Origin: Apophysomyces variabilis
Taxonomy: Eukaryota; Mucoromycota; Mucoromycetes; Mucorales; Mucoraceae
NCBI GenBank assembly: GCA_002749535.1
Contig: MZZL01000409.1
Location: 1,160,604-1,224,603 of the forward strand
Direction of reading: 5' to 3'
Length of the DNA: 64,000 nt
Position 1 is the first letter of the stretch. Every line of letters starts with the position of its first letter. Below are positions 402-59,699 of the stretch, piece by piece. The notes beneath the pieces are model-generated. The model was not told the DNA's origin, ran no database searches, and worked only from the letters and a program-made list of their open reading frames with translations. The position numbers and the translations under genes are program-made.

Positions 402-906
402 TCATTTTGGCAGGGCTTCAAAAGCCATTTTCAATTCTTTGACTTTCATTCCGGTCTTGGTCCTCACCTCGCTACGCATCTCATCGGTGGGTAGTTCCTG
501 CAGAAATGCCTCGTAGGCATCTAGGCACTCTTTTACGGCCTTTTTGGCCGTTTGATAATCCTCGCGATAATATACCGAGCCTTGGGACTCCTCGGCATAT
601 TCCATCTACATGTTTTTACCTCTCAATTCAGTGCCTTTCGTTATATCTACGGAGTTTTCCCAATTAACTAACTTCATCTTTGGCAGCAGTGAACAACTCT
701 TCAATATGATTAATCGAGTTCTCGAGCTGTGTAGCATTGTAAGATGTTCTCCATGGTGAAATCACAGAGAATCTATGACGGTTTGCTTGAGAGATGGTTT
801 CAGTGTTCGGACTGTTTGCTTTGCTTTGCTGTTCTACCTGGAAATGGCTGGCATCTGTTTGATAATAAGATAATGCTCCTGTTTCTTGGCCACCAAGGGC
901 GAACAA
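402..906 (-). CDS. Small conserved acidic helical protein, function unknown
   Basis: Three exons on the minus strand: 906-838, 726-673 and 605-402, all joined in phase 0 (donors gtagaa and gttagt, acceptors acacag and tgtag). They give about 108 residues starting MFALGGQETG. The middle and last exons form one helix-rich unit, with INHIEELFTAAKDEMEYA followed by YREDYQTAKKAVKECLDAYEAF. The C-terminal segment, SEVRTKTGMKVKELKMAFEA, looks like a short conserved family of cytosolic helical proteins, but I cannot name it. There is no signal peptide, membrane segment or catalytic motif. The gene is divergent from the Dgk1-like kinase, with 226 bp between the start codons, so a shared promoter is likely. 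The first exon is the least certain part. Confidence 0.6.
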
Positions 907-1132
907 GAGAGTGCGATTTTGGTAGGAGGGTAATGTTTGTCAATCGTTGCATATCAGGTCAAAGGGTTGAAATCGGAGAGGATCGTGCCTGCCGGTCGGG
1001 GTTAATGTCAGTTTTGGAAAAGTAGCAAAAAAATTTGAGCTTATTCGACTCTTCCCTACGCTTGTTCTTTCTTTTGGCTTTGTCCTTTTCCTCTCTCTTC
1101 CTTTCCTGTTCCCTTCTTTACCTTTTCAATCC
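907..1132. promoter_or_regulatory. Divergent promoter, small helical protein gene / Dgk1-like gene
   Basis: The 226 bp between the two start codons must hold both promoters and 5' UTRs. A pyrimidine-rich stretch (about 1055-1125, CTTTGTCCTTTTCCTCTC-like) lies directly before the kinase ATG at 1133, as is common before fungal transcription starts. No specific operator is recognised. Confidence 0.4.
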
Positions 1133-1974
1133 ATGTCGCAACAAGATAAAGTAAACGACAAGAAGAGTGCTGAAGACCCACGCTTCTCTCATATTCAACC
1201 CAATGGTAGTTGGGAGATCCCTCGCAAGATCTTCCATTACTCAATCGGTAAAGAATATAGGATCCTATCGACTCTCTGTCTCAGGCACACGACTTATATA
1301 TCATGACTAGGTTTTGTGGTGTATTATCTCTATACACATGGATATAATACAACCGATGTATATCCCTTATTGACGGCATTCCTGTGTTTGGTATTGACAG
1401 GCGAATTACTGCGATTCTCCGTTGAATGGTTCAACGTACTGTATTGCCGAGTATTGGGATCGCTTATGCGTCGAACAGAAATATCCTCACGACTAAATGG
1501 TGTTGTTTACTATCTTGCAGGTTTGTCAAAAGATAACAAAGATGAGATAGATAAACTAGGTACTTATCCCATGTTCTAGGTTGTGTCATCGTTCTGTATG
1601 CATTCCCTAACGATATCGCCTCGTTATCTATAATCTATCTTTCATGGACGGATCCAACCGCTAGTATATGTGGCCGTTTGTGGGGTCGATATACCCCTCG
1701 CTTTGGTAACAAATCTTTAGCAGGCACGTTGGGCGCGGTGGTAACTGGAGCACTTGTGACCTATGCTTTCTTTGGCACGAGCGGATACAATGCACCATCT
1801 TACTCACCTGATGGTATCAACCTGGTATTGTTCTCCCTATATGGTGGTATCGTGGCCGGTGTTTCCGAAGCTGTGGGCGATTCCCTTGGTTTAGACGATA
1901 ACCTGACCATCCCTGTGCTTAGCGGCATTTTCCTCTGGGTACCGCTGGTAGGGTTGGGTCTCGGCAAGGCATAA
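1133..1974 (+). CDS. dgk1: CTP-dependent diacylglycerol kinase, Dgk1-like integral membrane protein
   Basis: Exons 1133-1247, 1311-1520 and 1580-1974, joined in phase 1, give 239 residues. The N-terminal IPRKIFHYSIGFVVYYLY block is the conserved entry motif of the Dgk1/dolichol-kinase/phosphatidate-cytidylyltransferase-like superfamily. Further on are LSWTDPTASICGRLWGR and FGNKSLAGTLG, the D-P..A...GR...GK.SL.G signature that binds the nucleotide, then GVSEAVGDSLGLDDN and a final hydrophobic helix. Several hydrophobic spans fit a multi-pass ER or nuclear-envelope protein. In yeast Dgk1 makes phosphatidate from diacylglycerol with CTP and opposes lipin. The assignment to Dgk1 rather than another member of the superfamily is inferred from length and the RK.FH start. 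Confidence 0.85.
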
Positions 1975-2406
1975 ACACAACAGGCCACATGTCTATTCTT
2001 CTTTCCTTTGTAACATAGAGATTTCCGGCTGGTTCGTCAGAAGCTTGTAGATAACAATCTCTCTCGATTCCTTTTTAATTGCTTTGTTTCTTTCATGCAT
2101 TTTTTGCTAACATGTACGTCACTAATAAACACATGGAATAGAACTTAGAAACAGTCAATTGTGGTTTTTTTTTTAGAAAATTGAAATTTTTAGGCTATTT
2201 TTTTGGGGGGTGGGTGAATGTGATAGAGAGAGAGAGAAACAATTCATTCCCCATGTAGTAGAAACTGGATTTGTTTTTGGTAAGTTAAAAAAAGAAAGAG
2301 AGAAGGAACAAAGATTACAGGGAGGTATTGGAAAGGTAGACAAAAGAAAATAATCCAAGATACAAACGTTAGTCAACTTTTTGTTTTTTTTCTCAATACA
2401 GCAGAT
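1975..2406. other. Intergenic, convergent 3' ends
   Basis: Lies between the 3' ends of the kinase gene and the zinc-finger gene. Contains AATAAA-like A/T-rich signals and poly-T and GA tracts (2162-2310). No gene is supported. Confidence 0.5.
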
Positions 2407-4060
2407 TTATGAGGACTTGGGGAGACTGATGAGAGACGGAAACGCAAACGGAGTCAGATGTGGATCTTCCATTGTCTTGTGATCATCTTCTCGTGGGTCT
2501 GTATCTTCCATGTAAAACGGTCCTTCGTCATCTGTCTGATGATGATTGTTGTGATTATGGTTAGAAAATTGAGTAAATGGATCCGTTCTAGTCTCGAGAT
2601 CTTGGATATTGGTTGCCTTCTGCTGGGTCTTGCCACTATTTCCGCCGCCAGGAATATTAATAGCGTTTGACTTGCCCTGGTCCAGATCTCCTTCATCCAT
2701 ATCTGTGTAGAAGTTTGTTTTATAGTAAAATGGCACCTGTAAAGATCGGGCTTGTTGTGAATGCTGTTGTGGTTGCTGCTGTTGGGAAAGACTGTCAAAT
2801 GGCGACTGGCCATCCATGATCAGCGACGGTCGATAGCCAAGCAACGATTCTGAAGTCGATCGTTCAATCATGCGATCTCCAGGACTATAACTTGCATGGT
2901 AGGAGCGAAAGGATGCTTGCTGCTGCTGATTTTGTTGGTGCTGCCGCTGTTCTCTCGACCGTCTCTGCTGTAATTCGGTCGGTGTCAAAAGCTCGTTCAG
3001 TGAGGAAGGTAGCATAGCATCGTTTATGTTTTCGTCGTCATCGTCTAAAATATCTTCGTCAAAAATGTCGCCATTAGAATAATAAATGCTTTGAGGCACG
3101 TCTAAATAGCGGGAGGATGATTCTGGGATGCTGTGGAGCGCCTGGCTACCGCGTAAGGAGGAAGACAAGACGCTGTTGCTTGCCGAATGAGAGAAAAACG
3201 GACGATAAGGTGAAGAACTCAGGTCACATTCGCGGGGCGACGCCGTACGTAGACCACTAATGAGAGGATCCATCGAAAATAGATTAGCATGGGATTGCTG
3301 CTTGGAACGCCTTTGGTCTTCAAATACGGGAAATGACGATGGTTGCGATGGTGCGGATGTTGCAAAGGGGTCACGCAGCGAACGATCGACACTACTAGAC
3401 AATTCTGGCTCGAGCCACCCACGTGCGGATGCATATAATCCACCAGCTCCACTACCGCTGAGGTCCAAAGCATGAGGACTGCCAGAAAACCGACCCACAC
3501 GGCCATTACCCGCCGTCAGGTGTTGCTGCTGTTGCTGCGTACTACTGCCGCCTGCACCGACCGAGCGGTTCATCAGTAATTTTCGGCCGTCGGCGGAATA
3601 AGGCGACATGGTGTGCAACAAAGCGCATTTGGTACCAAACTTACAATTGCCTTTCAAGAAATACTTGCACACCGATGATTCAGAAGTAGGATCTGGGTTA
3701 TGCGAAAAAATGCAATTGGCGCCAGCAGTGCAGGTTCCTTGTTTGAAGAACTTGCAAGGCACATGGGAAAGGTTCGATGCTATCAAGCAGTTAGATATCG
3801 ATCCTTTGGTTTGACTTTCCTTAGTTCTTACGTTTATTATGGTTAGAATTGCTCATGTTAGTTGTATGAGGTGCTCTTGATGGAGTGGATGGGGAGTTAA
3901 GCGATGAGTCATTGGGAAGCGGCGGGACAGGACCCTGTTGGCTGCGCGACCGTTTCAGTTGGAAAGGGGGAAGTCGTGATGGGGAGCTTTTAGACAGCTG
4001 ATTGAGGCCGAGGCGATCAAAGCCTTCCAGTAAATCAGGTGCCAACGAATGGTCTGTCAT
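2407..4060 (-). CDS. Tandem CCCH zinc-finger protein, Lee1-like
   Basis: Two exons, 4060-3832 and 3779-2407, are joined in phase 1 by a 52-nt intron (donor gtaaga, branch ctaac, acceptor gatag). They give about 533 residues. The splice joins an N-terminal Ser/Pro-rich segment (MTDHSLAPDLLEGFDRLGL) to SNLSHVPCKFFKQGTC. Two fingers follow, both C-x7-C-x5-C-x3-H: CKFFKQGTCTAGANCIFSH and CKYFLKGNCKFGTKCALLH. This spacing and the KGNCKFG..CALxH sequence match the fungal Lee1-type family, probable RNA-binding regulators. The rest is low-complexity: Gln tracts (about 2735-2790 and 2905-2965), Ser-rich blocks and a DEDILDDDDEN acidic patch. RNA targets are unknown, and the intron is needed to keep the first finger in frame with the start. 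Confidence 0.85.
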
Positions 4061-5887
4061 TGGAGTCTAGAAGAGGTGTAGTTTTCTTTTCTTTTTTCTA
4101 CTTTTTTGGTTTTTTAGGTCTTGGTAAGGTTGAGTGAGAAGGAGGACGAGAGAGTATGCCTTGAAAGGGTCGAGTGGTTATTCTATGAACAGCATACAAA
4201 GTAAAGTCCCGCAAGAGAAAGATGACTAAAACAGAGAGGTGTCTTTGGATATAGAAGAAGCGAGTGAGAAAAAAGGGGAGTTCTCTTTTTTTTTTCTTTT
4301 TGGATAAAAGGAGTTCACAGTCAGACGGTTGGCTGCTTCTTGTACAAACAGCGAGTCATGCGCTCTGTTATTTTGCCAATGGTGACACAAAACCGACATC
4401 TGCATTCTGATGCTATCGGTTATTACTTCACTGATGAAAATGATGGCATGTTTCCCAACACTAACTATTACCCTTCCTCCTCCCCCCTTCCCACTTCATC
4501 CTGCTCATGATCGGGGAAAGTAAAAGTAAAAGGTGGATCTTCTGCCTTTTGCATCTTCCGAGATTTATATTCGACTTGAAGCAGTTACTTGGATTTTGCT
4601 CAAATGACTGATATTTAAAGGATCCTACTACAAAAAAAATATTGCAACCCGAAAAGCGGGAAATGAAGTCGAGATCACAATCTGTCGAGTCAGCTGCTGA
4701 ACCATCCGTCTATCCAGGAGTTGTCACTGGATTGAATGTTATACCTCAATTATTACTCATTATTACACTCCACGTAGCCTCTTACCCAGAGTAGTCAGCT
4801 TAAGGCATGAGTTATGTATGGCTGTAAGACCTCCTGTACTTAGGAGACGTACTCGTTGTCTTGTTATTAATTGGTCCCTGTCGTGGCTCGATCTTGCAGA
4901 ATGATGACAGATGGTTCGAATAAGACACCTACACTGAGGAATTTTGGTCGCTTTTATTATGGATATAATGTATAGAATAAAATCTTGTAAGCACAGATAA
5001 GCATCCAATGTTCGCTGAAGAAAAAGCAGCTTGGCGTATGGTGGTAGGAACCTACGCATTGCTCTTTCTCTTCTATTATCTACTTCAGTTTGTATGTCCT
5101 GATTACTGTAGCAATCCCCTCTGTATCACTCTGATAACCGGTCAGAGGCTAAGGAACAAGAACAAAATAGCAATAAATTTTAAGCTTTTCTTCTCTTAGT
5201 GGAATAACTCTCCTCATTGAATAGAGTGATGATGTTTACTCGGTTTAAGCCCAATACTGCACTGATTCCCTTTTCTGATGGCAGCCCTCGAAGATCAAGT
5301 CATAAAATTAAAGGAAATCGGCCAAGCGCAATGAAACTCTGAGGTTGTTTCTACACGAGGTATCTAACATTACTCATGAGAAAGAGTTATGCAAGCCCAG
5401 GAAGGATGCCGTACTATCGTTTCTTTTTTAATAGTGCCCTTCTTCCGCCCGTATTCAGCTCCGACGCTCCCCCGATCATCGGTGGAAAAACCATTCATGC
5501 CGGGAAAACTGTCTCACGATACTTAGCCCACAACGACTTGGCTCCGAGCCCATTATTTTGTCTCCATATGTGCATGCGTTGGTGTCAAATTGAGAGATAC
5601 TGCTCTTAGACAGCATGTCCTAAGTCTTGGTACACAGTGTTTATGGAAGCCATTTTGGGCTCCTAGATAAGGCTACTGCTAGTTCCCGACAACATGTGCG
5701 TCGACTTTAAACGCACTGATAATTTTGCCAGTGACCCATGGTTGATAATCGGCTGGTTAGGTATCCGCAGGAAACACAGCATACGTGTTACTCGGTTAAA
5801 TGATTAAACGCTGTGTTTGCAATGTGTAGACGATCCTGAATCGCGGACACTTTGCTTGCTGCCTGAAAGTGTTTAGCCTTGTCGATC
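4061..5887. other. Gene-poor interval upstream of MSH3
   Basis: The left part (4061-4350) is the purine-rich 5' region of the CCCH gene. The rest has only short open frames without family resemblance or splice support. No RNA gene or repeat was recognised. Confidence 0.4.
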
Positions 5888-8800
5888 ATGTGCAGTGGCC
5901 GTAAACAACAGCAACTCACTCTTAGTTCCTTTTTCAAAAAGAAAACGGACAGTGATGGAGCGAGCAAAACATCAGACGCGGCTAGTAAAAAGCAGGAATC
6001 ACCCTTTTTCGGGACCTCTAGACCGGATCTGGAGCAGCGATTCGGATATGATCCTAAAGCTACCGTCGATACTGAGCAGGATGAGCACAAAAAGAGACTC
6101 CATGCTCAGTTTGTAGAGAAATTCGGTGTTCTTGCCGAAGAACGGGAAATCAAGCGCCAGCGTCATAATGGGGAGCCAAAGGCAGAAGACACAGAAGAAA
6201 TGCGATCCACGCGTGAAATCCCTTTAGATCTTTCAAAATACGTTAATCAAGACAAAGAAGAACTAAAATCGGAACGAACTATACCTGAACCGCCAAGAAA
6301 GAAATGGTCGCCACTCGAATTACAAGTACTTGAGCTGAAACAACAGCACCCAGGCATTTTGCTCGTCATTGAAGTAGGATACAAGTTCTGCTTCTTTGGA
6401 GAAGATGCAAAGGTTCGTCTAATCTCACATGCAGCAGCTGGATAGATATATTCAACAGTGCCTATATAGGTTGCATCACGGATACTTCACATTGCGCATT
6501 TTATCGATCGAAATTTCTATGTTGCGAGTATCCCTTTTCATAGACTCTCCATCCACATCCGAAGGTACGTAAAAGAGAATGCCGATATAGATTTTGTTGT
6601 TCATACGGTAATAAAGGCTAGTTTCTGCTGGACATAAAGTGGGTGTGGTGCGTCAGGTTGAAACAGCGGCATTGAAGGCAGCAGGGTCAAATCGTGCTGG
6701 ACCGTTCCGACGCGAACTTAAGCAGTTGTATACCAAAGGAACTTTCGTGGATGAAATGACAGCATCAGATCTAGAGGAAGATACGGAATTGACTGCATCG
6801 TCAAACTACTTGATGTGCGTTGTGGAAGAAAAACGCGGTGGTGGAGGGCCAGATGAGCTAGTGAAGACTGGTATCATTGTAAGTACTTCCGTGTCACGGA
6901 TCTTATGTTACTGAATGCTGTGCCAAGGCGGTTCAACCAGCAACAGGTGATATAATATATGACGCTTTTGAAGACGGTTATATGCGCAGCGAACTGGAAA
7001 CACGGTTGTTGCATATTGAACCCTGCGAACTTTTGCTCCCTCATACCCTTAGCAAACCAACGGAGAAATTGATCAAACACATTACCTTACAGAGGTTATT
7101 ATTAGCGATCCTTTTTTGAACAACTCATTTACCAGGTACTAGAGCATCGGCTTTCGGCGAAATGGTTCGGATTGAGCGATTGGCAGAAGATAACACGTTT
7201 GCGGATGACTATAACGACGCCTTCACATATGTATCAGGGTTCTACACGTGTTGCAAAACAGAGCATAAAGATGGTGTTAAACATGGTAAGGGGCAATTAC
7301 ATTGTACCATACGATATTCACAATAGATCAGATCTATTATTCGCCGAGGTTTTACAGTTACCGGACACCGTTATGTAAGATAATAAGATTCATGGATGCC
7401 GAATCTTACATTTCAACCAGCAAAGCATTAGCAGCTACTATAAAATACCTTTCTGAGTTTGGCCTTGAGCATGTATTACAATTGACCAAATACTTCCTGC
7501 ACTTTTCCTCGCGAAACCATATGCTTTTGAACGGCAACACCATTGCTAACTTGGAAATATACCGAAATTCGACGGATTACAGCGAGAAAGGATCACTTTT
7601 CTGGGTCTTGAACCATACTATCACGAGATTTGGAAAGCGCCTTCTAAAAAGATGGATAGGAAGACCATTGGTCGACGTTGAGTAAGATTGCAGTTATTGT
7701 TACTATATGACTTACTTTTTTTTTCATTCTAGTCAATTGAATATTCGTATCAATGCAGTAGATGAACTTTTAACGACGGAAAATCCAAAGAAACAAAAGG
7801 CGCAGGCGCTTCTGAAACAATTACCGGATCTTGAGAAAGGACTATGCCGTATCCATTACGGAAGAGTATGTAAACCAAATCCATGTATAAGTTGCTAGGC
7901 TACCACTGCTTCTAGTCTTCTCCAGCAGAGCTTATTCAAGTGTTGGATGCGTTTCTAAACGTGTCTACTACGTTTTATGGATCGGAACAAGCTGAACGAT
8001 TCGAATCAGAACTTCTTAACAACATTTTTGATTTACTTCCAACTATCCGCAAAGATGTGATGGAATTCCGAAATGCGCTTAATGCAAAGGCCTTAAGTTC
8101 GCAAGATTGCAAGATATATTTGTTTCAATCTGAAGAGCGATGGCCCGAAATACCACGGCAGAAAAAGGTATGAGTGGGAAAGAAACATCTGATATATTTC
8201 TGTCCCTTATCGGTGATGAAATACATAGTGTATATCAGAAATAGAAATGCAACTTGAAAGCTACTTGGAGGAATTGAAGACGTCTGTAAAGATTCCTACA
8301 TTGAAATTTGTCCATGTCGCGGGTATTGAAGTAAGTATCAATAGTTTTATTATCTTTTATTGACAGAGTTCTTTTTCAGTATCTTTTAGAAGTCAAAAAC
8401 AGTTTGACAAGCAAAGTTCCTCAAAAATGGATCAAAATTAGTGGCACAAAGGCTGTCTCTCGGTTCCACACTTCCTTTCTCATAGAAAAGCTAAAGGAAC
8501 GTGAGCAGCACAGGGAGAGTCTTGTAGTTGCTGCCGAAACAGCATATCGCGCATTTTTGAGGTAAATAATATAGTTTGTTTGTTGGACAGGTAATGACTT
8601 TACATGGGTCATTAGCGAGATATCCGATAATTACGAAAGTTTGCGTGATGTTGTACTACGGCTAGGTGAACTGGATTGTTTACTATCGTTAGCAGTAGCC
8701 GCACGCCAGCCGAATTATGTGAAACCAACGTTTACTGAAGGAACACAAGTCAAAGTTGTGAATGGGCGTCATCCAATGGTGGAAAAGTTTCTGGGCACTT

Positions 8801-47795: not shown

Positions 47796-49785
47796 ATGGC
47801 TTCGCTTTCGAGGTAACCGTGAGGGGAAACAATGCTATATGTGTCATCTAGACTAATTTCTTTGACAGTTTGTTACCAAAACCACAGACAAAACTGGAGT
47901 CGACTAGCGCTCCTTCAGTCAATTTGGAAGAAAAGATCCATCAGCTCGTCTCTAAACGCACGATCGCCAGAATCCCTCCTTATGGACAACGTAAAGATTT
48001 CAGACCTCGCTATGCAGAAGATTACGGAAATGGAGGTGCATTCCCGGAAATTCACATTGCCCAGTATCCTCTCGACATGGGGCGGAAGAAGGATAAAACA
48101 AGCGAGAGGAGCGGCGGTGCTCTGACCTTAGAGGTTGATGAAGAGGGCAATGTCAAGTACGATGCGATCGCACGGCAGGGACATAGTGAAAATCGCATAG
48201 TCCATACATCTCTCAAAGATCTCGTACCATTAAAGGAACGCAAGGATGTGGATGTCGAAAAAATAGCCATGGATCGTCCTAGCGAAGAGGAAGTACAAAG
48301 CGTCGCAGAAAAAACCAAAGCAGCGCTTGAACGTATTGTCAGCGGAAAGCTTGCTGCAGCCCAACCGAAAAATGTAGTTGCTACTTCAGGTGGAACGAAT
48401 AAAGATCCCACATACATTCGCTACACACCAGCACAAAATCAAGCCAGTGACACATTCAATTCAGGCGCAAAACAGCGCATTATCCGCATGGTCGAAGCAC
48501 CCGTTGACCCGATGGCACCTCCAAGTCATTTACATAAGAAAGTACCTCGTGGTCCGCCCTCACCCCCCGCTCCAGTAATGCACTCTCCCCCACGAAAGTT
48601 AACGGCCAAAGAACAAGCTGAATGGGTGATTCCCCCGTGCATCTCCAACTGGAAGAATACAAAGGGTTATACAATTCCACTTGACAAACGATTAGCAGCT
48701 GATGGACGTGGCCTACAAGAGCTGACAATCAACGATAATTTCGCGAAATTCTCTGAAGCACTCTATGCGGCAGATCGTCATGCGAGAGAGGAAGTTAGAC
48801 AACGAAATTTGATGCAGCAAAAGTTAGCACAAAAACAGAAGGAAGCCGAAGAGGAGAAGTTGAGAAATCTTGCCCAAAAAGCTCGAGAAGAAAGGTGAAT
48901 GACCACATTGTTTAGAAAAGTCGCTAAATTAATATTGACGTACTATCAATAGAGCTGGATTAAAACCTTCGGCTTCATCTGCAGCAGCAGAAATATCTGT
49001 CCCATCAAATCGTCCTACAGCTGCATCCATGGTGGCAGATTACGATTCGTCTGATGAATCAGGAACCGAGCGGTCAGCTAGTGGTAGCGAAAGCGAAAGT
49101 GAAGAAGAAAGCGAGAGTGAGAAACGCAACCGTCGGCGCCGAGAAGAAGAAGATGAAGCCAAAGCTAGAGAACGTGATCAATTACGACGCGAACGACAAA
49201 AACAACGCGAAAGAGAACTTCGCATGAGTCGAATGGGTACTGAAGCACGAGCGAGACAGCTTGCTCGGTAAGATATGAGCTGAATGTTTAACGACTTGAT
49301 CTAATTCGCTTCATTCGTTAGCGAACAAGGCCGTGATATTTCTGAGAAGATTGCGCTAGGTTTGGCTAAGCCAACGATGAGCAAAGAGAGCATGTATGAT
49401 GCTCGACTTTTTAACCAGAGTGAGGGCATTAACTCTGGCTTTAAAGATGATGAATGTAAGTACCTTAATAACCACAACGACAGAATACAGCATGGTATTT
49501 AAACGACCTTCTATAGCGTATAGCCTTTACGACAAGCCCTTGTTCTCTGAAGGATCGTCCTCGATCTACAAATTCAAAGGAAAGGGTGACAGTGAAGTGT
49601 GGGGTACAGAAGGTGAAGTACCTAGCCGCCCTGTTGAGTTTGAACAAGAGATTGTTAGCGGAAGCCAACCAGCTCCCACAGACAAAGATGTTTTCGGTTT
49701 GGATACCTTTTTGAACAAGGCCAAGAAGGGCAAGAGAGCGCGAGATAACGATAGCGACGAGGAGGGTGACAGGAAACGAAGATAG
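47796..49785 (+). CDS. prp45: SNW1/SKIP/Prp45, spliceosome and transcription cofactor
   Basis: Five exons, 47796-47812, 47869-48894, 48953-49267, 49322-49455 and 49517-49785, give 586 residues. The first exon codes only MASLS plus two bases. The SKIP/SNW core contains IPPYGQRKDFRPRYAEDYGN, GAFPEIHIAQYPLDMG and IPPCISNWKNTKGYTIPLDK, which includes the SNWKN signature. Next come LTINDNFAKFSEALYAADR and a Lys/Glu/Arg-rich helix. A Ser/Glu patch (SESESEEESESEKRNRRR) is followed by GRDISEKIALGLAKPT and YDKPLFSEGSSSIYKFK. In yeast and human the protein is part of the activated spliceosome (NTC-related) and also acts in transcription. All family blocks are present and the length is normal. Confidence 0.95.
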
Positions 49786-50474
49786 TTTATTTTTTTTTCT
49801 TAATAAGTTACAAACTCAAAACAATGGAATGGAAAATGAGCTCTCGGTTATTGACGACCTATTGATAATTTTTTCAGGGTTGCAATGCTTTAAGCTATCT
49901 TTCGTTATGCTGAATTTTTTGCGTATCTCTTAAGTAAATCTCTGAGCAATATCGGGAATATTTAAGCATTGGCTATAGTCAATTGCTCAAAAGTTGATGA
50001 GCTTGGTCCCTTTTCAAGGTCAGATTTTACCACTTTTTACAAGCCGAAACAGCACCTCAGCTGGATAAGGTTAGAAAAAGGTTCGAGGGTTACTACAAAG
50101 ATCATTTGACAATTTCCGAGCACCATAAGACGGTCAAACGACCTTTGCTTGACTGTTAAACTTGTGTATGCAGACGTGTAAATCCATGATTCTCTTGGCG
50201 TGTTTGATTAAGGAACCCTAATAGTATAACAAATTCCTATAATAGGCATTGTTGTGAGTCACACAATGAGACTGAATTTAAAAAAAGAAACCTGTTATAT
50301 GTCCGTCATAGCGACGGATGCCGGCCTTCGCATCCTGTTTATAAAATAAGCAAATTACTTGTGCAGATAACTAACAGTAACACCTACCAGTATGGTGGCT
50401 TTCTGAAGACGACTGTACGCACCTATAGTAAAGATATATTAGCTGTTAAAGCTGCCACACTTTAAATATGTCGG
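49786..50474. other. Interval downstream of Fanzor-like gene, with hairpins
   Basis: Lies 3' of both SNW1 (+) and the Fanzor-like gene (-). It includes tandem hairpins at 50303-50335 and a small palindrome around 50250-50264 (TTGTGAGTCACACAA). No protein gene is supported. Confidence 0.4.
50303..50335 (-). ncRNA. Tandem hairpins downstream of Fanzor-like gene (possible guide-RNA scaffold)
   Basis: CCGTC(50303-50307)/GACGG(50313-50317) and GGATGC(50316-50321)/GCATCC(50330-50335) form two adjoining, slightly overlapping stems about 140 bp past the stop codon of the Fanzor-like gene, on its 3' side. TnpB and Fanzor guide RNAs come from this position. Whether it is transcribed is unknown. The hairpins could equally be a chance structure or a terminator. 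Confidence 0.25.
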
Positions 50475-53400
50475 TTACCTTTGAACGGTGGTATCGGCAA
50501 TATTGGATATTCCAGCGTCAAAATGGCTGGGATCAAATGGTGGCAACGTTATCCTCTCTGCAGAAAATAGGTTGCTGATCGCCGCTAGTCCGATGGCCAC
50601 GGCGGCTTGAACGTCCCGATTTTGAGTCGTACGCCCTGCTTTAAAAGTAACACACTTCGAGTTGACGCAGCGCGAGCTTCCATTCATAGTACGCCATTTA
50701 ATTTCCTTGTAACGACGCCCTTTTGGGTGAATTATCTTCTGAAAACAGAATACGCATGTTTGCGAGCTACGATGCTCATCTGTCATTGCCACTGGGGTGT
50801 ACCTACGGTGTCTCGCCCGTAACCATTTGCCTCCACGCTTAGGATGGCCTTTCAATCTGGACCCAACACACGTCCCTTGGGTGCCAATCGCCATAACTGG
50901 TATTACCCTCCTTCCGCTATCATGTGGCCCCGCTTCCATCGCGATCTTTCTTCTCTCGTTTGCAGCCACTCTATCGTATATTCTCTCCTTGTAGAGATCT
51001 TGTATCACCTTTTCTTTGTGCCACCTGTTTGAATGGTAAAAATCCCTGAGCGTCTTTCTACAGCTCCGACCAATCTATAAATGTGTATGTTATCGATAGT
51101 TGTCCAAAAAAGACTAACGATTACCTTTTGACAACGAATAATATCTTGGACTGACATAGCTTTCTCCATCGAGGCTTCTTTCAATTGCTCTTCGGCTGCA
51201 AGAACCTCTGTATTCGACTGTGGCAATTATCACATAAGCACAACATATTGTAGCTGGCTTATTTACCTTCTTTCGTCGCTCCCGTTTCTTGCGGAATGTC
51301 CTTGCAAGTGTTTTTTCATCGAGCGATTTTGCCGTGATACGTATCGGCTTTGGTAGCTGGAGCATGTTAGTAGGAGAGACATCGATATCATCATCGTGAT
51401 CATTGACGTTATTGACACCCAGCATCGAATATCGATTGTAAAGCTGTAAATGGAAATCTGCTCTTTGTCTCGTAATAGGCACTGTAGTCGACAGCACTTG
51501 CAAACCGTAATCAGTGCCACTGAACGTTAGTACATTGTTCTGATCTTCTAAAAGTGGCCCAAGGTCTAGTCGGCCTACGCTGTCTTCACAGCCGGGGCGT
51601 CTCCCACTTTGGGGTCTGCACAGGCTATCCTCCTCCTCCTCCTCATCCTCCTCCTCATTTTCCTCGTCGTTATTGTCGTTGTGCTTGTCCTTCTTTTTCT
51701 CCTTTTCTTTTTTGTATTTGGTATCTTCTTCATCACCGTCTGCTTCCTCCATTTTCTCGTCTTCTCCTCCTTTGCTTTTTCTCTCTTTTCTGCCAGCAGG
51801 ACTTTTACCTTTTTTCTTTTGATGCGCTTTCACCAACTGTACGATTCTGTATATTAATATACGCTTTTATGTTGATGCAAGTTTGTATTCAACGTTACCT
51901 GTTCCAACTTGTACTTCTTCCGTCTTGCATTTGCTAACCGATCGTGTACTTGATTCAAAGCCATTTGTTGGTTTGACCAGTTCAATTTTGCAGCTTTTAA
52001 AGCTTCATAGCTCAGTTTCTGCTGTTGATATGCTGCTTCCTTTTCAGTAACCTTTTCATGTTTGTCTGCCTTTCTTTTGTCCCTTATGCGCTTTTGACAA
52101 ATAGCTTGATTTTCCTGATAGCTAGAGCGCAAACCTGCAACTAACTTCGTGGCTTCTTTCACAAGCTTGGTGTGTTGACATTTCAACGTTTCAAGAGTTT
52201 TTACATCCTTCTTTGTATCATCGAGAGTCTTTGCTAACTCAGGCGTGCTTTGTTGTTCGATGCTCGGCTCTTGGACGTAGGGTTCCTTTTTCCTATAATA
52301 CTTCTTTCGTCTCGCCTCGTACCGTGATTCTATGGGTCTTCTTTGTTCACAAACGTTACCATCAATAATTGCTGTTTTCTGCGGAGTTACTGTGATGCGC
52401 CAGCGTGGTACCAACCCACGCTCCTTGCATGTTTTTTCAATAGCCTCTACGTTGAAAAACGATCCAATCACTGTTCGCTTTTCTGCTATTGCTTCGTCTC
52501 TGTTTGTGAACACTGAGCCGTCTGCCTTGTAAATATCAAGCTGGGCATAGCTTGACCCAAACATTTCATACATGGCTACTGCATCTAGTGGTAGTGCGTG
52601 AACAGAAGCAGGGCTGATTGTGGGACATATCGAAGCAGTGAACTCTTGATATCCAATCGAACAGAGCAAAGCGTTCGCCAATACTACGAAATTGAGACGC
52701 AGCGGTATACAAGGAGCAATTTGTCCCCTAATGACGTACGGCCTTAATGCGTTTGCGATATTCACCACGGTATCGATTTCTTGAGGAGAAAATGCATCGT
52801 CCGCATGAGAGGTAGCTAGCACATCTTCCACTGTTACATGGCCGCTGATCTTATCTGACTGTAGGAGGGCTTTGGTAATAGCTTGCAGGATACCGAGCTT
52901 TCGCCTGCTTGGCTCACTTGTCTCCTCCTTCTCCTCCTCCTCCAGTTCTTCTTCTATTTGTTCGAACACACCGATGTGTGTTTCACCGAGGGATATCAAA
53001 ATCTTCGCTTGCTGCTCCTATTTTGCCACGTAAGCATATATCCTAATCAATAATGAAGTTTACCTCTTCTTTTGTAACCGACGCTCGGTTGTTCATTTGC
53101 TCTACTTTTATTGATTTTGGGTTGGACCTGGACTCCGATCGCGCCAGCAATTGGTTTTCGAGCCGTTCGATCGCCTCAGCACACGTCGCCGCACGCGTGG
53201 CTAGCCTTACCAAGATATCATCTTCTTCTTCCTGCTCGATCTGCTTCTTCAAGTTTCGCAATTGCTTTTTCTCGTTTTTTAATTTCCTTTTGATAGCTTT
53301 TTTCCGATATTGGTACTTGATCACTTGTTGCTGCTCGATTTCTTTTTCTCTTGCTAGTTTTGCCTTCTCTCTGATTTATCGTACTTTTTCTTCACGCCTT

Positions 53401-54545
53401 GGTGCAAGATTAACACGGAGTAGAACACGCAATAAGTGATTCATGCTTCTGTTGTAAAGAGATCCTGCCCACATATTCTTTAAATTCGTCGAAAATTGCT
53501 TCATGTAAAAATGCGACGTCCTGCAAAGACCATCGGGAATTACAGGCTGATTGTCAAGAGTTTGATCATGGAACTGCATCCATAAGTAGTGTTTTTCTTT
53601 GCTCACGTTTCCTTTTGTGCCAAAATATAACCCGTGCAGAAATTGGATATGGTTCTCATTGAACATGGAAAGTAGATCGTTGTTTCGCCTGCCTGGCATC
53701 TCGTCAAGAAACTGCGAAAGATTATCTGGCATTGGGGCTACAGGTACAAAATAGTCATCTACCAGCATACTTTCGTCACGTAATTTTTCTTTGGGTACAA
53801 CTGTACGGATATCGAAGCCAGTTGATGTTTGGTCCAATTCAGCTTTCACTGAACCTGATGCTGGGTCTAGAGACAAGGAAACTGACACGTATTTCAACAT
53901 GGTAGCACGTACAACAGTTGCCAAGTCGGACACATAATCCGTCATTTGCACGGACGTCGACTCTACCGTGTGCATAAAAATCCTTTTCAGATTTTCGTCA
54001 AGATCCGGCCGCAGTACGGATTTCAAAGGAACTGTACATGTCCTGAAAAGGTTATCCGAGTCTTCATCTTTCTTTTTGGGTCTGTTCTGCTTTCCTTCAG
54101 CTTTGACCACAGCCAAGACATCATCGAAGTTATAGACCGCGCATTGTCTCCAAAACTCGCCTGTTTTATGGGACGACGAGAGTCTAGAACGTATCTGTTT
54201 CTCTATTGTCCCTTTAGGGACGCCCGCTTTTTTGTCTGCTTCCTCAAAACTTCCTCGAGGGATTCTGTCTGCTTTTTCAAGAGCTTGTCGCAAACGATTC
54301 ATCCTTTTTTCTTGAGCCTTCAGTCTCTTTTCTTTTGTTTTGGCAGACTGTTTTCCTTTCTTTGTTTTTCTAGAATTTTTTGTCTCATTTTTCCACAGTT
54401 CGTTTGCTATAGTACTCTTCAACTTCTGTAAAAGTACTTCAAGCAAGGTGTTTTTGGCTTGATCGTAGGATATCTGAGGCTCTGTTTGCCTTTTCCTTTT
54501 TCTTCTGGCGCTACCGCGTGGTGTAGGTAATTGTATTTCGTTCAT
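50475..54545 (-). CDS. Fanzor/TnpB-like RuvC nuclease with zinc ribbon, one in-frame TAA
   Basis: Minus-strand exons 54545-53064, 53017-51899, 51836-51267, 51217-51125 and 51074-50475 are all phase 0, about 1,286 positions. The N-terminal 500 positions are basic and helical (ARRKRKRQ, KTKEKRLKAQEKRMNRLRQA). The middle part holds IPLRLNFVVLANALLCSIGY and an Arg/Lys-rich coil, then a Lys/Glu tract (51590-51760). The nuclease part starts at FSGTDYGLQVLSTTVPITRQ (RuvC-I Asp). IPVMAIGTQGTCVGSRLKGH sits at RuvC-II and lacks the usual Glu. TDEHRSSQTCVFCF offers an alternative Glu and the first CxxC, CVNSKC completes the ribbon, and NRDVQAAVAIGL carries the last Asp. This arrangement resembles eukaryotic Fanzor proteins. 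TAA at 53376-53378 breaks the frame at codon 390, though coding sequence continues in the same frame. Confidence 0.75.
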
Positions 54546-55774
54546 ACAAAATACAAGAAATGTTGGATCTAGTTCTCAAAAGTAGAACGGAAAGGTGATA
54601 TGCGAATTGTTGTCTAAACTGTTGTCCAATTTTCACTTGACAGATTGGACTGCGAACTTTTCTGATGAAAAAAAAACTGAAACTTTATCACTTTATTTAT
54701 CGTGGCTAGCTCTCATGTAGTTGAAAAGGAGAAAGAAGATAACGAGAAAAATTCGATTCGGGCAACAGAGAAAAAATGGACAATTCTTTATAACGGTTGG
54801 CAAAGAAGGGGAAGACCAAGGATACAAAGTATAAAGAACCTAGGTTATAGTGATTGCTATTGAGAAAGAAGCGGCAATATGAATAAAGAAAATCACAGGG
54901 AAACAAGGGACAAAGGTTAAGCTGACTGGAATATACATGATCGCACTCCCACTTTTATTTCTTACCTTTTACTACCTTTATATCCAACCAATCTTGGTTC
55001 ATGGAAAAAGACGGAAAAGGTTCGCTTGCAACGTATCAGCGAAAGGAAAAAAAAGGTACGAGAGCAGAAAAGGCACACAAGTAAATGTCTTTGTGTCGGA
55101 TACAGGCCGCATAATTGCTCTGGTTGGTTGGGTTGATTTAGCCTTGCATCAAAAGATCGATAAAAGCCGGGCACTTGCTGTACCCTTCCATCTCAAAATC
55201 AAAGGCCTGCATGCTCCAGAAATCGTGTGGCCTCTGTTCGCAGTAACATCGTACATTGCAACAGAAATCTCATACAGTTGCGTAAACGCGCCTCCGTGTT
55301 TACATAAAGGTAATACATGCACAAATTGAGCGGTACTTCACATGTATAATTTTTTTGGATTGCCCCCATCAACGGTCGATGTAATTGTATATTTTCTCAT
55401 AGACTTGTGGGTGGTTTTTACTCTGCTGCCACATCTTCAAGTCCTTCCCATAAGAATGCCGATGTGAGTGTAATTTCAACGCTGTTTGAGTAAAGTAAAG
55501 ACTGTAATCGGCTTTTACGTACGAATCCCCCGTAAAACGTCCAAATTGCTAAGGTGTACCGTCGTTTTCTTTGGGATATCCTTGTATGGAAACCACTTCT
55601 TCAAGACTAAATTTTGCCTTGATTACGATGTGACCATCTGCGTACTGCTGATCGCTATGATAGACCTACAGAAAATTCAGCAAGAAAATGCGTCCTACGG
55701 TTTAAATAAAGAATGAAATAGTAAGCACGTTATCATGAATTGCTTTCTGTTTCGATTTATATTGCGCTTTTGTG
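54546..55774. other. Upstream flank of Fanzor-like gene with one orphan ORF
   Basis: Holds an open frame at 54937-55329 (+) coding about 130 residues with a hydrophobic start (IALPLLFLTFYYLYIQPILV). It has no recognised relatives or clear splice extension, so it is a weak gene candidate. No inverted repeat matching the other side of the Fanzor-like gene was found by eye. Confidence 0.3.
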
Positions 55775-56314
55775 NNNNNNNNNNNNNNNNNNNNNNNNNN
55801 NNNNNNNNNNNNNNNNNNNNNNNNNNNNNNNNNNNNNNNNNNNNNNNNNNNNNNNNNNNNNNNNNNNNNNNNNNNNNNNNNNNNNNNNNNNNNNNNNNNN
55901 NNNNNNNNNNNNNNNNNNNNNNNNNNNNNNNNNNNNNNNNNNNNNNNNNNNNNNNNNNNNNNNNNNNNNNNNNNNNNNNNNNNNNNNNNNNNNNNNNNNN
56001 NNNNNNNNNNNNNNNNNNNNNNNNNNNNNNNNNNNNNNNNNNNNNNNNNNNNNNNNNNNNNNNNNNNNNNNNNNNNNNNNNNNNNNNNNNNNNNNNNNNN
56101 NNNNNNNNNNNNNNNNNNNNNNNNNNNNNNNNNNNNNNNNNNNNNNNNNNNNNNNNNNNNNNNNNNNNNNNNNNNNNNNNNNNNNNNNNNNNNNNNNNNN
56201 NNNNNNNNNNNNNNNNNNNNNNNNNNNNNNNNNNNNNNNNNNNNNNNNNNNNNNNNNNNNNNNNNNNNNNNNNNNNNNNNNNNNNNNNNNNNNNNNNNNN
56301 NNNNNNNNNNNNNN
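55775..56314. other. Assembly gap (540 N)
   Basis: A run of undetermined bases. Open frames crossing it are meaningless. The true gap size may differ. Confidence 0.99.
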
Positions 56315-57269
56315 CTTGCTGGCACACGACAATAGGCATGTGTGTGGAAGAAACGCTATACTACAGATTAACCGAATGCTAAATAGATAACCCATTCAAA
56401 CAGAAGCTTACTATAGTTTGAATTCGATCTGTTCTTTCTCTTTGTTTTTTAGCTTCCATTTCTTTTTTTCTCCAAGAAGATTAAGAAGACAATGGTGAAT
56501 GAAGCTCACATTATCATTAGTTTATCCACAGTTGTCTGCTTTGGATTCCTGTTGTTATGTTCCCTTTTCTTTATATATTTTTTTAACCTTATACACCTAA
56601 CCTTATCTGAATTTAGATTTAGGTGGAAGTGACACACACAGAGATACTGTGAAGAGAGAGTTTTTGAAAATGTACGATCCCTGGATCATGGCCGGTCTTG
56701 TTGAGTATTTCAGTCTGGTCACAATTTGACTGGTGACCTGAGTCATGACCCACTCCTGTTATACCCTAATAGTACCTTGGTAAAAGTCAGAATACAGGCC
56801 TACAGTACAACATACGTTGAGGCCTCTCCGATCTACGTACCGTAATCAATAGCATTGTTTATGCAATACAGCTGTGGACAAATGCTCATCCAGAATGAGA
56901 TTAGTATAGCCTTATTGTGGCTACCGATAAAAATAAAGGATTTAATGAATTTATGCAGAACATTTCTTTTTCGCATCAGATCGATACCTTCGAAAATGCA
57001 TATGCTGATTTCTTACATAGGCAATAGTATTGTGTTGCAATGGAGCATAACAGTCGGCTTTCACAAATAATAGACATGTTAAACCATGACTGGGATACCG
57101 TCATGCATACAATGGCCGAGGTTCATGTCATTCTTCCAACGAAAATTAATGTTGCTCTAAGGACCGTCTTCTTTGGGGATAGGGAAATAAAAAAGGGAAA
57201 AAAAAGAATGTGGTAGTATGAATAGGGTTACTGTAGCATAACTAGATTCCTGTTCACTCTGACTACGTA
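56315..57269. other. Intergenic, no gene recognised
   Basis: Between the gap and the 3' end of the F-box gene. Short open frames only. Confidence 0.4.
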
Positions 57270-59117
57270 CTAATGTTTCAAGGGATACTTGATGTCGTGG
57301 AATTTGAATTCTCGTACTGAATGGCACAATACACTGACATAGCCATACGGAATGTCTGTTTCCCACGGTTCCTTATCGTAGTTGAAAGAGTCCCGCGATA
57401 CATTGGGCGGAGGATCAGTACAACAAGGGTGATATTGTTTCACTAATTGGATATCTTCCGCGTTCAGTTCACGTAAACGGTACGTATCATTATAATTTGG
57501 ATGTAGACAGCAGTTGTTGTGGTTACAAAGGTGATGCCATGTTCTCTTCGTATTCCTGTTTTTCAATTGTGATATCGAGAGGATCGTTGCGTTTGCCAGC
57601 CAGGTATCTGTCATGTCCATCCGACTAATATCATGGATATCCAGTAAAGTTAGGTCGTGATTCGGTAAACTGATCTCGATAGCAGGTTGTTCATGTAAGC
57701 CAATGCGAGCAACCAGATTCAGAGATAACTCTTGTAAACGAGGACAGTATCTACTTAAGAAATCAAACATGTCTGGATTCCAGAATGCCACATTCAGTTC
57801 TAGACGTTTGAGACTGTCGTGCGTTTGGTGATACCGGCTTTGGGTTGATATCGCTACTGTGGCGAATTTTATAACTAGCCTCGTCAAACTTTGGCAATGA
57901 TATAGGATCGGGTCGAGTTCAAATGTGTTGCGTCTTGGAGCATGATTACTTGTTGATAAAAGAGAGAGAGATGTTAAATAACGACACGGCCCAAGGTATT
58001 TTGCGATCTTTAACGAAAAATCAAGACGGTTTCTTTGCCATATAGGCGCTTTTACCGCCCTTGGTGCAAGTATTTGGACGCAGTTCCACAAAGCATCCAA
58101 TGTTTCTTCTACTACGCTATCGTGAACTTTTGACCAGAACGGCACGACTTCCATCACAGACAAGTTGGGATGGACAATTCCCAGCGCCTGAAAGAATCGG
58201 CGATCCACCACGATGCTTTCCAGCTTAAGCGTTTCCAGATGTGCTAACGATTCGGCCAAAATCGCAAGGGCTTTGCAACTCATCTCCCGATAATGCACTG
58301 TAGGATTAATTATGCGGTTGCATCGAATCTCGAGGTTTTCGAGGAAGGGATATTTGTATGCAAGATAGAAAAACCAATGATACTGATCAATTGTTAAACT
58401 TGAGAAATGTACTCTTTTCAGCCTCTTTGCCACTGGGTATCGTATAAGTTGGTCCCGATCATACATAGTCAAACGTATTCGCTTTAGAGACAAGTCTTCT
58501 AATAACGGACAATGTGCATGAATCGTTTCCATATCATCAACGGTCAATTCTCCATGCATCGCTATGTTATCGAGTACAAAAGATTTTATGTTTGGCGTAC
58601 ATTTCAACGCCTGGATCCATCCGAGTGTTTCTCCATCACACAGCTGGAATTCCAGATCTGTCAGCTGAGGACCCATTGCGTTTAGCACGCCCCGACACGT
58701 CTCCAGTTCCGGAAAAGCAGGAACGCGTTCTAGCTGAGACCAGCGGTTTAATGGTGCAAAGATTGGCCAAAGGATCCTTGGAAAGAGCAGAACTCTCAGA
58801 TAGGGACACAGTGATGGCAATTCACCTGCCAATGCTGGTCTAGTGTTGATTTCAACCCAAAGTTGATGGTTATTTTCGATTCTTAATTCTCTGACCAGAT
58901 GACCCGGTGGGTTATCCCCCAGGGCTGAAGCATTCAGAGCATGGTAGATGAAGCGTGTCCATTGGCGACCTGAGGTGATACGTACGGTGCGGTATATGAC
59001 CTGCCGTATGATTGAGTACCATAAGCGACATACAAATAAACATGTGTGTTGTTCCTTCGAAGATAGAAGCCTGGCAATATCGCAGAAGATCTCGCTAGGA
59101 ATATTAGTCGCTGACAT
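57270..59117 (-). CDS. F-box/leucine-rich-repeat protein
   Basis: An intronless frame of 615 residues, unlike its intron-rich neighbours. The N-terminus NIPSEIFCDIARLLSSKEQH and LFVCRLWYSIIRQVIYRTV is an F-box (LP.EI...I...L......CL.VCR.WY), which binds Skp1. Irregular leucine-rich repeats follow: CPLLEDLSLKRIRL, KYPFLENLEIRCNRI, LAHLETLKLESIVVD and YCPRLQELSLNLVARIG. A Cys/His-containing C-terminal stretch (HHLCNHNNCCLHPNY) may bind metal. Such proteins act as substrate adaptors of SCF ubiquitin ligases. The target is not predictable. The family is large and expanded in Mucoromycota, where many members are intronless and lineage-specific. Confidence 0.88.
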   Translation of the reverse strand: MSATNIPSEIFCDIARLLSSKEQHTCLFVCRLWYSIIRQVIYRTVRITSGRQWTRFIYHALNASALGDNPPGHLVRELRIENNHQLWVEINTRPALAGELPSLCPYLRVLLFPRILWPIFAPLNRWSQLERVPAFPELETCRGVLNAMGPQLTDLEFQLCDGETLGWIQALKCTPNIKSFVLDNIAMHGELTVDDMETIHAHCPLLEDLSLKRIRLTMYDRDQLIRYPVAKRLKRVHFSSLTIDQYHWFFYLAYKYPFLENLEIRCNRIINPTVHYREMSCKALAILAESLAHLETLKLESIVVDRRFFQALGIVHPNLSVMEVVPFWSKVHDSVVEETLDALWNCVQILAPRAVKAPIWQRNRLDFSLKIAKYLGPCRYLTSLSLLSTSNHAPRRNTFELDPILYHCQSLTRLVIKFATVAISTQSRYHQTHDSLKRLELNVAFWNPDMFDFLSRYCPRLQELSLNLVARIGLHEQPAIEISLPNHDLTLLDIHDISRMDMTDTWLANATILSISQLKNRNTKRTWHHLCNHNNCCLHPNYNDTYRLRELNAEDIQLVKQYHPCCTDPPPNVSRDSFNYDKEPWETDIPYGYVSVLCHSVREFKFHDIKYPLKH

Positions 59118-59699
59118 ACAGGAGACGGCTCTTTAGAACACAGTTGCTTTGATGACCGGTCTTGGTTTGTTGCACAGTTTTAAACAGCTGTCACATAACG
59201 GAATCTACAGTATATGGGGAAAAACCAAATAACCTAGATCTCTTGCTTTTTATTCCTTTTCCGTGACATAAGTTTCAGCATTGTTCGTTAGTATATAGCT
59301 TGACTAGATATCCAAATGAAATATTAAAGAATTAGTGATACAGGTTAATTTTGCTTCCTGACCCCTCGAGTGTCCGAGCGACGGATGTTTGGTAGGTTCC
59401 ATTAGGTTCCGATCATGAGATAGTTTAGGTTTTCACATGTTGTTACTTTCGAATGAAAAAATGTGGGGTCGTGTCTTCTTTGCTCTCTTTCTATATTCTC
59501 TCTCTCTCTCTCTCTTTTTTTTTTTGTTCTTTCTCAACCTATCTTGAATAGCGTGAAATACAATTATCCATCCTTTTTTTTTTGACTCAGCTTAAATTAT
59601 CCGAATTGGTTGGCAACAGATGCATAATAAAAATTCGGCTCCTGTTTCTCACTTTGCTTTCCCACCCCCACTTTCTGGTCCTACTCTTTCACTTAGACC
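59118..59699. promoter_or_regulatory. Divergent region, F-box gene / acyl-CoA oxidase gene
   Basis: 582 bp between start codons. A CT-repeat and T-tract (59497-59525 and 59573-59585) precede the oxidase gene and probably form its core promoter and 5' UTR. Confidence 0.45.

Follow-up and report, generated by a model that had tools for sequence, protein, structure and literature searches.

A probable very large Fanzor1-type nuclease gene in a recently multiplied element of Apophysomyces variabilis

Eukaryotes have RNA-guided DNA nucleases of the TnpB line, the Fanzors, few of which have, to our knowledge, been examined at the bench. We analyzed a 64,000-nucleotide stretch of the genome of the mucoralean fungus Apophysomyces variabilis (contig MZZL01000409.1, positions 1,160,604 to 1,224,603; hereafter the window, in whose numbering unlabelled coordinates are given), where a first-pass annotation, made from the letters alone, had proposed a divergent and unusually long Fanzor gene. 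We conclude that the locus is probably a broken copy of a recently multiplied mobile element that encodes a very large Fanzor1-type RNA-guided nuclease, with the RNA of its 3' tail as a candidate guide scaffold.

The described systems are summarized here from excerpts of the cited papers. The Fanzor fingerprint combines DPG at RuvC-I, found "near exclusively", with a shifted catalytic glutamate, whose alternative position is six residues before the zinc finger (PMC10711439). In SpuFz1 of Spizellomyces punctatus (PDB 8GKH; Saito et al. 2023, PMC10432273), the metal ligands are D383 and N385, so that DPG is a usual rather than a strict criterion; the omegaRNA of SpuFz1 lies between the stop codon and the right end of the element, and its guide is the flank. 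Fanzor1 proteins share the motif D-X(125,275)-[TS][TS]XX-C4 zinc finger-X(5,50)-RD (PMC3627910), and most of them have 600-700 amino acids, with an exception named in the same source (PMC11423790).

The A. variabilis elements, which fall into the family of the window copy (family A) and a sister family B, resemble SpuFz1 in the RuvC and zinc-finger domain, in being multicopy with a candidate omegaRNA region between the stop codon and the right end, in having ghost loci that keep the ends and the tail but no gene, and in that no transposase was found in the element (PMC10432273, as excerpted). They differ in that the protein is about twice as long and has DYG at RuvC-I; in that the ends match over ~7 nucleotides, compared to inverted repeats of ~30 nucleotides; and in that the left-flank motif is ACT (GTACT in 9 of 12 copies) in family A or AAATACC in family B, compared to CA. 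An omegaRNA has been demonstrated for SpuFz1 (PMC10432273), whereas here it is a candidate from the DNA sequence. In related fungi, the Mucor, Rhizopus and Phycomyces Fanzor1 elements MCi-2, MCi-4, MCi-5, ROr-4 and PBl-3 are also multicopy and several kilobases (kb) long (Bao and Jurka 2013, PMC3627910); MCi-2 is without terminal inverted repeats and has a nearly identical 6-kb 3' part, and its 2A subfamily carries a partial Crypton transposase. The excerpted MCi descriptions mention no DYG motif, tail hairpin or ghosts, and the Fanzor and Apophysomyces transposon literature, so far as it was consulted, gave no description of this family; it should be noted that the comparison was by description only and that the Mucor families of 2013 may overlap with ours. 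PpFz1 of Parasitella parasitica (PDB 9CF1; PMC11423790) has an extra domain of ~100 amino acids inside RuvC, whereas here most of the extra length precedes it. In bacterial TnpB (IS605), the catalytic glutamate is about 50 residues before the zinc finger, which is not so here. Two proteins filed as hypothetical, and not named Fanzor by their sources, keep all the catalytic residues: EC973_007782 of Apophysomyces ossiformis (P0001, 1,285 amino acids) and BX664DRAFT_8905 of Halteromyces radiatus (P0002, 975 amino acids) are 45% and 31% identical, respectively, to L035, an intact sibling of the window copy. Judged by its sequence, the family appears to be a variation on Fanzor1 that is new in its DYG or DNG at RuvC-I and its roughly doubled length.

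Nuclease domain and gene structure

The three acidic positions (D, E, D) are kept across an alignment of seven rows of relatives that are 28-56% identical to the first row, with the sole exception of the last aspartate, which is glutamate in L048 (G000:C95:874700-876300), a diverged relative reading NRE in place of NRD. As the first-pass annotation had suggested, the catalytic glutamate is shifted in the manner of Fanzors, six residues ahead of the zinc finger (E1188-x6-CxxC by regular expression) in all eight intact copies of family A, being E1187 in the copy that is one residue shorter. The Fanzor1 motif is matched by the same eight copies and by 9 of the 17 database relatives, including P0001 and P0002; the eight misses are mostly fragments, while P0005 and P0013 are without parts of the motif. 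RuvC-I reads GTDYG in the eight intact copies, P0001-P0005 and P0008, and GTDNG in P0006, P0007 and P0013; GVDPG was found only in P0011, P0014 and P0016.

A nuclease-domain profile built from the DYG-type relatives alone recovered the Spizellomyces Fanzor1 (8GKH) with an E-value of 7e-10; Fanzor ranked first, and no unrelated zinc-ribbon family came out on top. The fold comparison was made on residues 165-1240 of P0001, as a stand-in for the window protein. In its AlphaFold model, the RuvC domain has a predicted local distance difference test score (pLDDT) of 80-93 in 23 of 31 ten-residue blocks, and its best fold matches are solved Fanzors. The proposed RuvC/RNase H fold is predicted in this relative, and so is the long helical N-terminus that had also been proposed, mostly as a poor model. 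The assignment as a divergent, unusually long Fanzor is supported, the protein being Fanzor1-like by profile, by the fold of a relative and by glutamate position.

Read from the sequence of the minus strand (54545-50475), the gene has five exons and four introns, all GT..AG and in phase 0, and the joined exons would encode 1,287 codons and a stop. This agrees with the five-exon frame of the first-pass annotation, whose motifs GTDYG, DEHRSSQTCVFC, CVNSKC and NRDVQAA were all found in frame, as was a second RuvC strand without the usual glutamate (VMAIGTQG). That annotation had overlooked an in-frame stop in the window copy and the repeated element of ~6.5 kb, with at least 13 near-identical copies, to which the gene belongs.

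At 1,287 amino acids, the protein is about twice the usual Fanzor1 length. Most of the extra length, ~975 residues, precedes RuvC; it is predicted, with low confidence in the P0001 model, to consist of long helices and coiled coil, and the protein contains Lys/Glu-rich and coiled-coil insertions. These ~975 residues are probably enlarged DNA/RNA-binding lobes.

Using the last exon, we compared the proportions of synonymous and nonsynonymous differences (pS/pN) between families and obtained 0.88/0.29 for A-B, 0.86/0.44 for A-L049, 0.84/0.50 for B-L049, 0.85/0.48 for A-L051 and 0.105/0.061 for L049-L050; exon 3 gave 0.86/0.31 for A-B. The pS is well above the pN between families, and therefore the protein has been under long-term purifying constraint.

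Element copies, ends and derivatives

In the assembly (38.7 megabases, 126 contigs), the last exon has 115 matches at E <= 0.001. Over 199 amino acids, 10 of them are 100% identical (the window's own included), three are 99% and one is 98% identical; one copy at 96-97% is split in two, 12 matches at 61% form a second family, and the rest are partial, diverged or broken. Ten identical matches among 115 are far beyond chance. Of 17 regions extracted, 13 including the window were aligned; L042, L044 and L047 (runs of 639-6,883 N) and L046 (an 88.7% relative) were left out. Each aligned copy is 98-99% identical to the window over ~5.5 kb, and all except L043, which is cut by a contig end, also match the 5' piece beyond the window's assembly gap, the size of which is only an estimate because the matching stretch is ~598 bases in several sibling copies. 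None of the 13 copies has lost any of the four intron borders. An intact frame of 1,286-1,287 codons is present in eight copies; four have frameshifts or many stops, and the window copy has a single stop. Near-identity of the copies between flanks that differ from copy to copy, in family A and likewise in the 12 copies of family B, marks the gene as one carried by a mobile element.

Family A starts at the left with ACTnnTAGGGTATAAC and ends at the right with TTTGTTATACT; its junctions can be written as ACTnn-TAGGGTAT on the left and ATACTnn on the right. The left junction is visible in 12 of the 13 copies, with ACT in all 12 and GTACT in nine. Since the same short sequence sits at both ends, the exact boundary is uncertain by a few nucleotides. 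The two bases after ACT (nn) agree between left and right in 6 of the 11 copies with both flanks (L033 and L043 are without one side), compared to a shuffled mean of 2.7 (p 0.014; the register was chosen after looking); among the five disagreeing copies, four keep AT at the left, and L045 has GT/GA. In our reading, the agreeing bases are a short overlap that element and target exchanged in tyrosine-recombinase style, which we treat as hypothetical because no empty insertion site was visible. The sequence CTATTAGGG is repeated exactly on both sides only in the window copy among these 11, and a MuDR-type carrier with a 9-bp target duplication, as in ROr-4, PBl-3 and MCi-4, was rejected on this count (1 of 11). 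A longer repeat, TACTATTAGGG, stands at both ends (50216-50226 and 56764-56774), again in the window copy alone; the site that this copy entered may have looked like the complete joined end of the element.

No recombinase match in Pfam was found in exons 1, 2, 3 and 5 or in two opposite-strand frames, part of the 5' third being an assembly gap and the 5' frames of the sibling L035 only partly scanned; DUF3504 had no match, though the control genomes gave none either. Elsewhere in the genome there are 18 Phage_integrase matches, several of them inside open frames of about 1,270-1,370 codons, which are perhaps DIRS-like or Crypton-like elements and possible helpers in trans. The two opposite-strand frames lie in the 5' third (plus strand, 54883-55329 and 55474-55716); the former is interrupted or split in most copies, has distant matches at C116, C77, C66, C6 and C73, and is perhaps a captured gene fragment.

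Comparison of family B (G000:C29:24143-~29100, L016-L027 and L067-L078) over 2,380 positions, roughly half the length of the element, gave a single variable column; the 5' part of the family is somewhat less uniform (97-100%). The 3' end is sharp: after CAGATACC, the 12 copies have 12 different flanks, 11 of which start with G. The left end of family B falls at positions 1843-1845 of the L067 query in nine of the other 11 copies, with 1832 and 1849 in the remaining two, and the left junction is AATACCGAGTGGGTATTC in 10 of 12, L016 and L025 being off by one or two bases. The uniformity suggests recent spread and perhaps current activity. By eye, there is hardly any difference between family B and EC973_007782 of A. 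ossiformis, and EC973_005401 shares 89% identity with part of family A, covering 15% of the query. The genome also holds a classical GVDPG family (L052, G000:C27:198900-200400), with five equal-scoring last-exon matches at C27, C95, C107, C110 and C79 and similar ones; therefore several Fanzor lineages coexist there.

Two ghost derivatives, one around C95:595700-598040 and one around C52:223250-225560, were read completely. Their sequences share 75.6% identity over 1.85 kb, and in both the first ~50-68 codons of a B-type protein are joined to the last ~130, with decayed frames and the tail kept. Both also match a stretch of the family B 5' region and end at the family B end point (ATACT, GATGCT). 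By eye there is a decayed likeness to the family B left end; the left boundary is not fixed, because the similarity of the two ghosts extends ~40 nucleotides further out. At C95:2256178 and C43:89177, only the distance of ~1.5 kb between 5' and 3' matches hints at the ghost structure. That a single spacing recurs in four cases suggests that ghosts spread as gene-less elements.

Table 1. Coordinates of features of the element in the window
Feature	Position	Strand	Basis
Whole mobile element, family A, ~6.5 kb	~50223..56770	-	comparison of copies and flanks
Left end ...ACT[AT]TAGGGTATAACAGG	ACT at 56773-56771	-	
Right end ...TTTGTTATAC[T]	near 50223	-	
Assembly gap of 540 N within the element	55775-56314		
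Exon 1, 494 codons; in the window copy, codon 390 is an in-frame stop	53064..54545	-	
In-frame stop truncating the window copy	53376..53378	-	alignment of 13 copies
Exon 2, conserved central region, low-confidence fold	51899..53017	-	
Exon 3, Lys/Glu-rich stretch, then RuvC-I	51267..51836	-	
RuvC-I aspartate D976 in GTDYG	51510..51512	-	invariant in seven-row alignment; regular expression
Exon 4	51125..51217	-	
Exon 5: RuvC-II, shifted glutamate, zinc finger, RuvC-III	50475..51074	-	
Glutamate E1188, Fanzor (Ealt) position, six residues before CxxC	50775..50777	-	invariant in seven-row alignment; regular expression
Four-cysteine zinc finger C1195, C1198, C1224, C1229	50652..50756	-	invariant in three-row and seven-row alignments, except C1198 (R in L049)
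RuvC-III aspartate D1242 in NRDVQAA	50613..50615	-	6 of 7 rows (E in L048); regular expression
3' noncoding tail, candidate omegaRNA scaffold; putative guide is the flank after ~50223	50225..50474	-	genome matches
Conserved tail hairpin TCCGTC-GCTAT-GACGGA	50302..50318	-	

On either side of the element, the first-pass annotation had placed SNW1 and an F-box gene. The SNW1 side is confirmed by a SKIP/SNW match in Pfam (47852-48895, E 1.7e-73); on the other side, a 620-amino-acid frame at 57270-59132 reads like an F-box protein.

The 3' tail as a guide-RNA candidate

The 250-nucleotide tail has 21 matches in the genome including the window, five of which score as identical over all 250 nucleotides. 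Alignment between the family A tail and the family B tail is poor, yet both contain a hairpin with a GCTAT loop, its stem being TCCGTC/GACGGA in A and CCTGTC/GACAGG in B. The word GTCGCTATGAC has 50 genome matches, compared to eight for the reversed word, and the corresponding 13-base word of family B has 22 versus one. Of the 50 matches, 34 follow a same-strand Fanzor match at a distance of 160-526 nucleotides, where 0.06 is expected by random placement; no matches in the other orientation were found near Fanzor matches. Eight further tails contain the B-type hairpin region: L056-L060 lie directly 3' of partial last-exon matches, and L061, L064 and L066 have none nearby. The shared hairpin is thus a guide-RNA candidate on sequence grounds, and a layout with a scaffold in the tail and the guide in the flank is inferred from the anatomy of the element by its likeness to SpuFz1. 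The tail of the window copy, identical to those of siblings, could supply a guide in trans.

Interpretation and alternative explanations

If the locus belongs, as we think probable, to a mobile element with an RNA-guided nuclease, the 3' tail would be transcribed as a scaffold RNA reading past the right end into flanking DNA. Because the RNA would run into the flank, the guide of each copy would be different and match its own insertion site. The protein and the RNA would then cut the same site without the element, on an empty donor or a sister chromosome, and repair of the cut would restore or copy the element; movement itself would be due to a recombinase, which was not found in the element.

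Several observations weigh against this reading. The window copy is broken by a single in-frame stop at codon 390 (53378-53376), because of which it is unable to make the full protein. RuvC-I is DYG where Fanzors usually have DPG, and the shifted glutamate is missing from P0005 and P0013. The central region has no relative in PDB by sequence search, and its own model is poor; the long model is likewise poor over most of the N-terminus. Among the eight near-identical frames (window copy included; L043 and the four broken copies left out), there are 9 synonymous and 21 nonsynonymous distinct changes, which gives no significant sign of selection (omega 0.64, p 0.18), and introns vary as little as exons (0-3.1 versus 1.6-7.4 differences per kb). 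All 34 placed hairpins are A-type or B-type tails, so the hairpin signal is of something that these two families have kept in common, and an exact hairpin word is lacking 3' of most of the 115 Fanzor matches. In the 13 copies of family A, the tail varies as much as the 5' noncoding region, each having 7.2 differences per kb, compared to 2.4 for exon 5; when four of the copies are removed, the values are 4.3 for the tail, 7.3 for the 5' region and 1.1 for exon 5. Covariation in the hairpin is weak, with double changes in 2 of 6 pairs and 24 of 500 shuffles as high; over the whole tail, RNAalifold gives double changes in 4 of 30 pairs and a covariation term of +0.6, that is, no net support.

The alternative that fares best is Crypton-like movement by a tyrosine recombinase, in which the two ends of a circular form would join into a core of inverted half-sites (ATACC, a short spacer, GGGTAT), the circle would recombine at genomic sites carrying the left half, and the Fanzor would be a passenger or a retention factor. 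We regard it as a serious contender, falling somewhat short of even likelihood. It agrees with the junctions of family B, where nearly all left junctions share one motif and the right end is ATACC before unrelated DNA, which starts with G in 11 of 12 copies, and with the agreement of nn in family A, the AT at the left of most of the other copies being what an overlap resolved either way would leave. Mucor MCi-2A, a Fanzor1 element without terminal inverted repeats, has a partial Crypton transposase (PMC3627910, as excerpted), and Phage_integrase matches are present in the genome. On the other hand, no recombinase was found in the parts of the element scanned, DUF3504 had no match (with equally silent controls), ordinary short target duplications are possible as no empty site was seen, and the p-value comes from 11 copies with a register picked after looking. 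A more elaborate scenario, which we advance only tentatively, would place these elements on a separate branch: giant Fanzor1 proteins (DYG or DNG at RuvC-I, ~1,290 amino acids) in mucoralean elements that undergo tyrosine-recombinase-like exchange at ATACC/GGGTAT half-sites, where the half-site at the end would double as recombination site and terminal portion of the guide scaffold, the genomic half-site would be the target-adjacent motif, and broken or gene-less copies would form a guide pool served in trans by intact copies.

It is unlikely, in our judgment, that the protein is a Fanzor1 relative which is no longer an RNA-guided nuclease and serves the element otherwise, for instance as a RuvC-fold protein that binds DNA or has a regulatory role. 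The unusual RuvC-I and length, unlike those of described Fanzors, the Lys/Glu-rich and coiled-coil insertions, and a tail that is not especially quiet within family A would fit such a role. Conversely, the acidic residues and zinc-finger cysteines are kept in most of the relatives that cover them (the exceptions being L048, L049, P0005 and P0013), purifying selection has been long-term, and the two-family tail hairpin would need another role. An unrelated zinc-ribbon transposon protein merely resembling TnpB/Fanzor is very improbable and largely refuted: single-sequence searches were silent (phmmer with the last exon found nothing in PDB, and Pfam TNB matched it at E 0.14 only), but the profile and fold searches both put Fanzor first.

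Read as an element with a very large Fanzor1-type nuclease, the family is about twice the usual size and breaks the published RuvC-I fingerprint. One genome contains two sets of near-identical, apparently recent copies, with sharp ends and gene-less derivatives. If the guide model is true, the 12 different flanks of the 12 family B copies are natural replicate guides. The copy sets offer a direct test of what Fanzors do for their elements, and of the relation between target motif and insertion motif.

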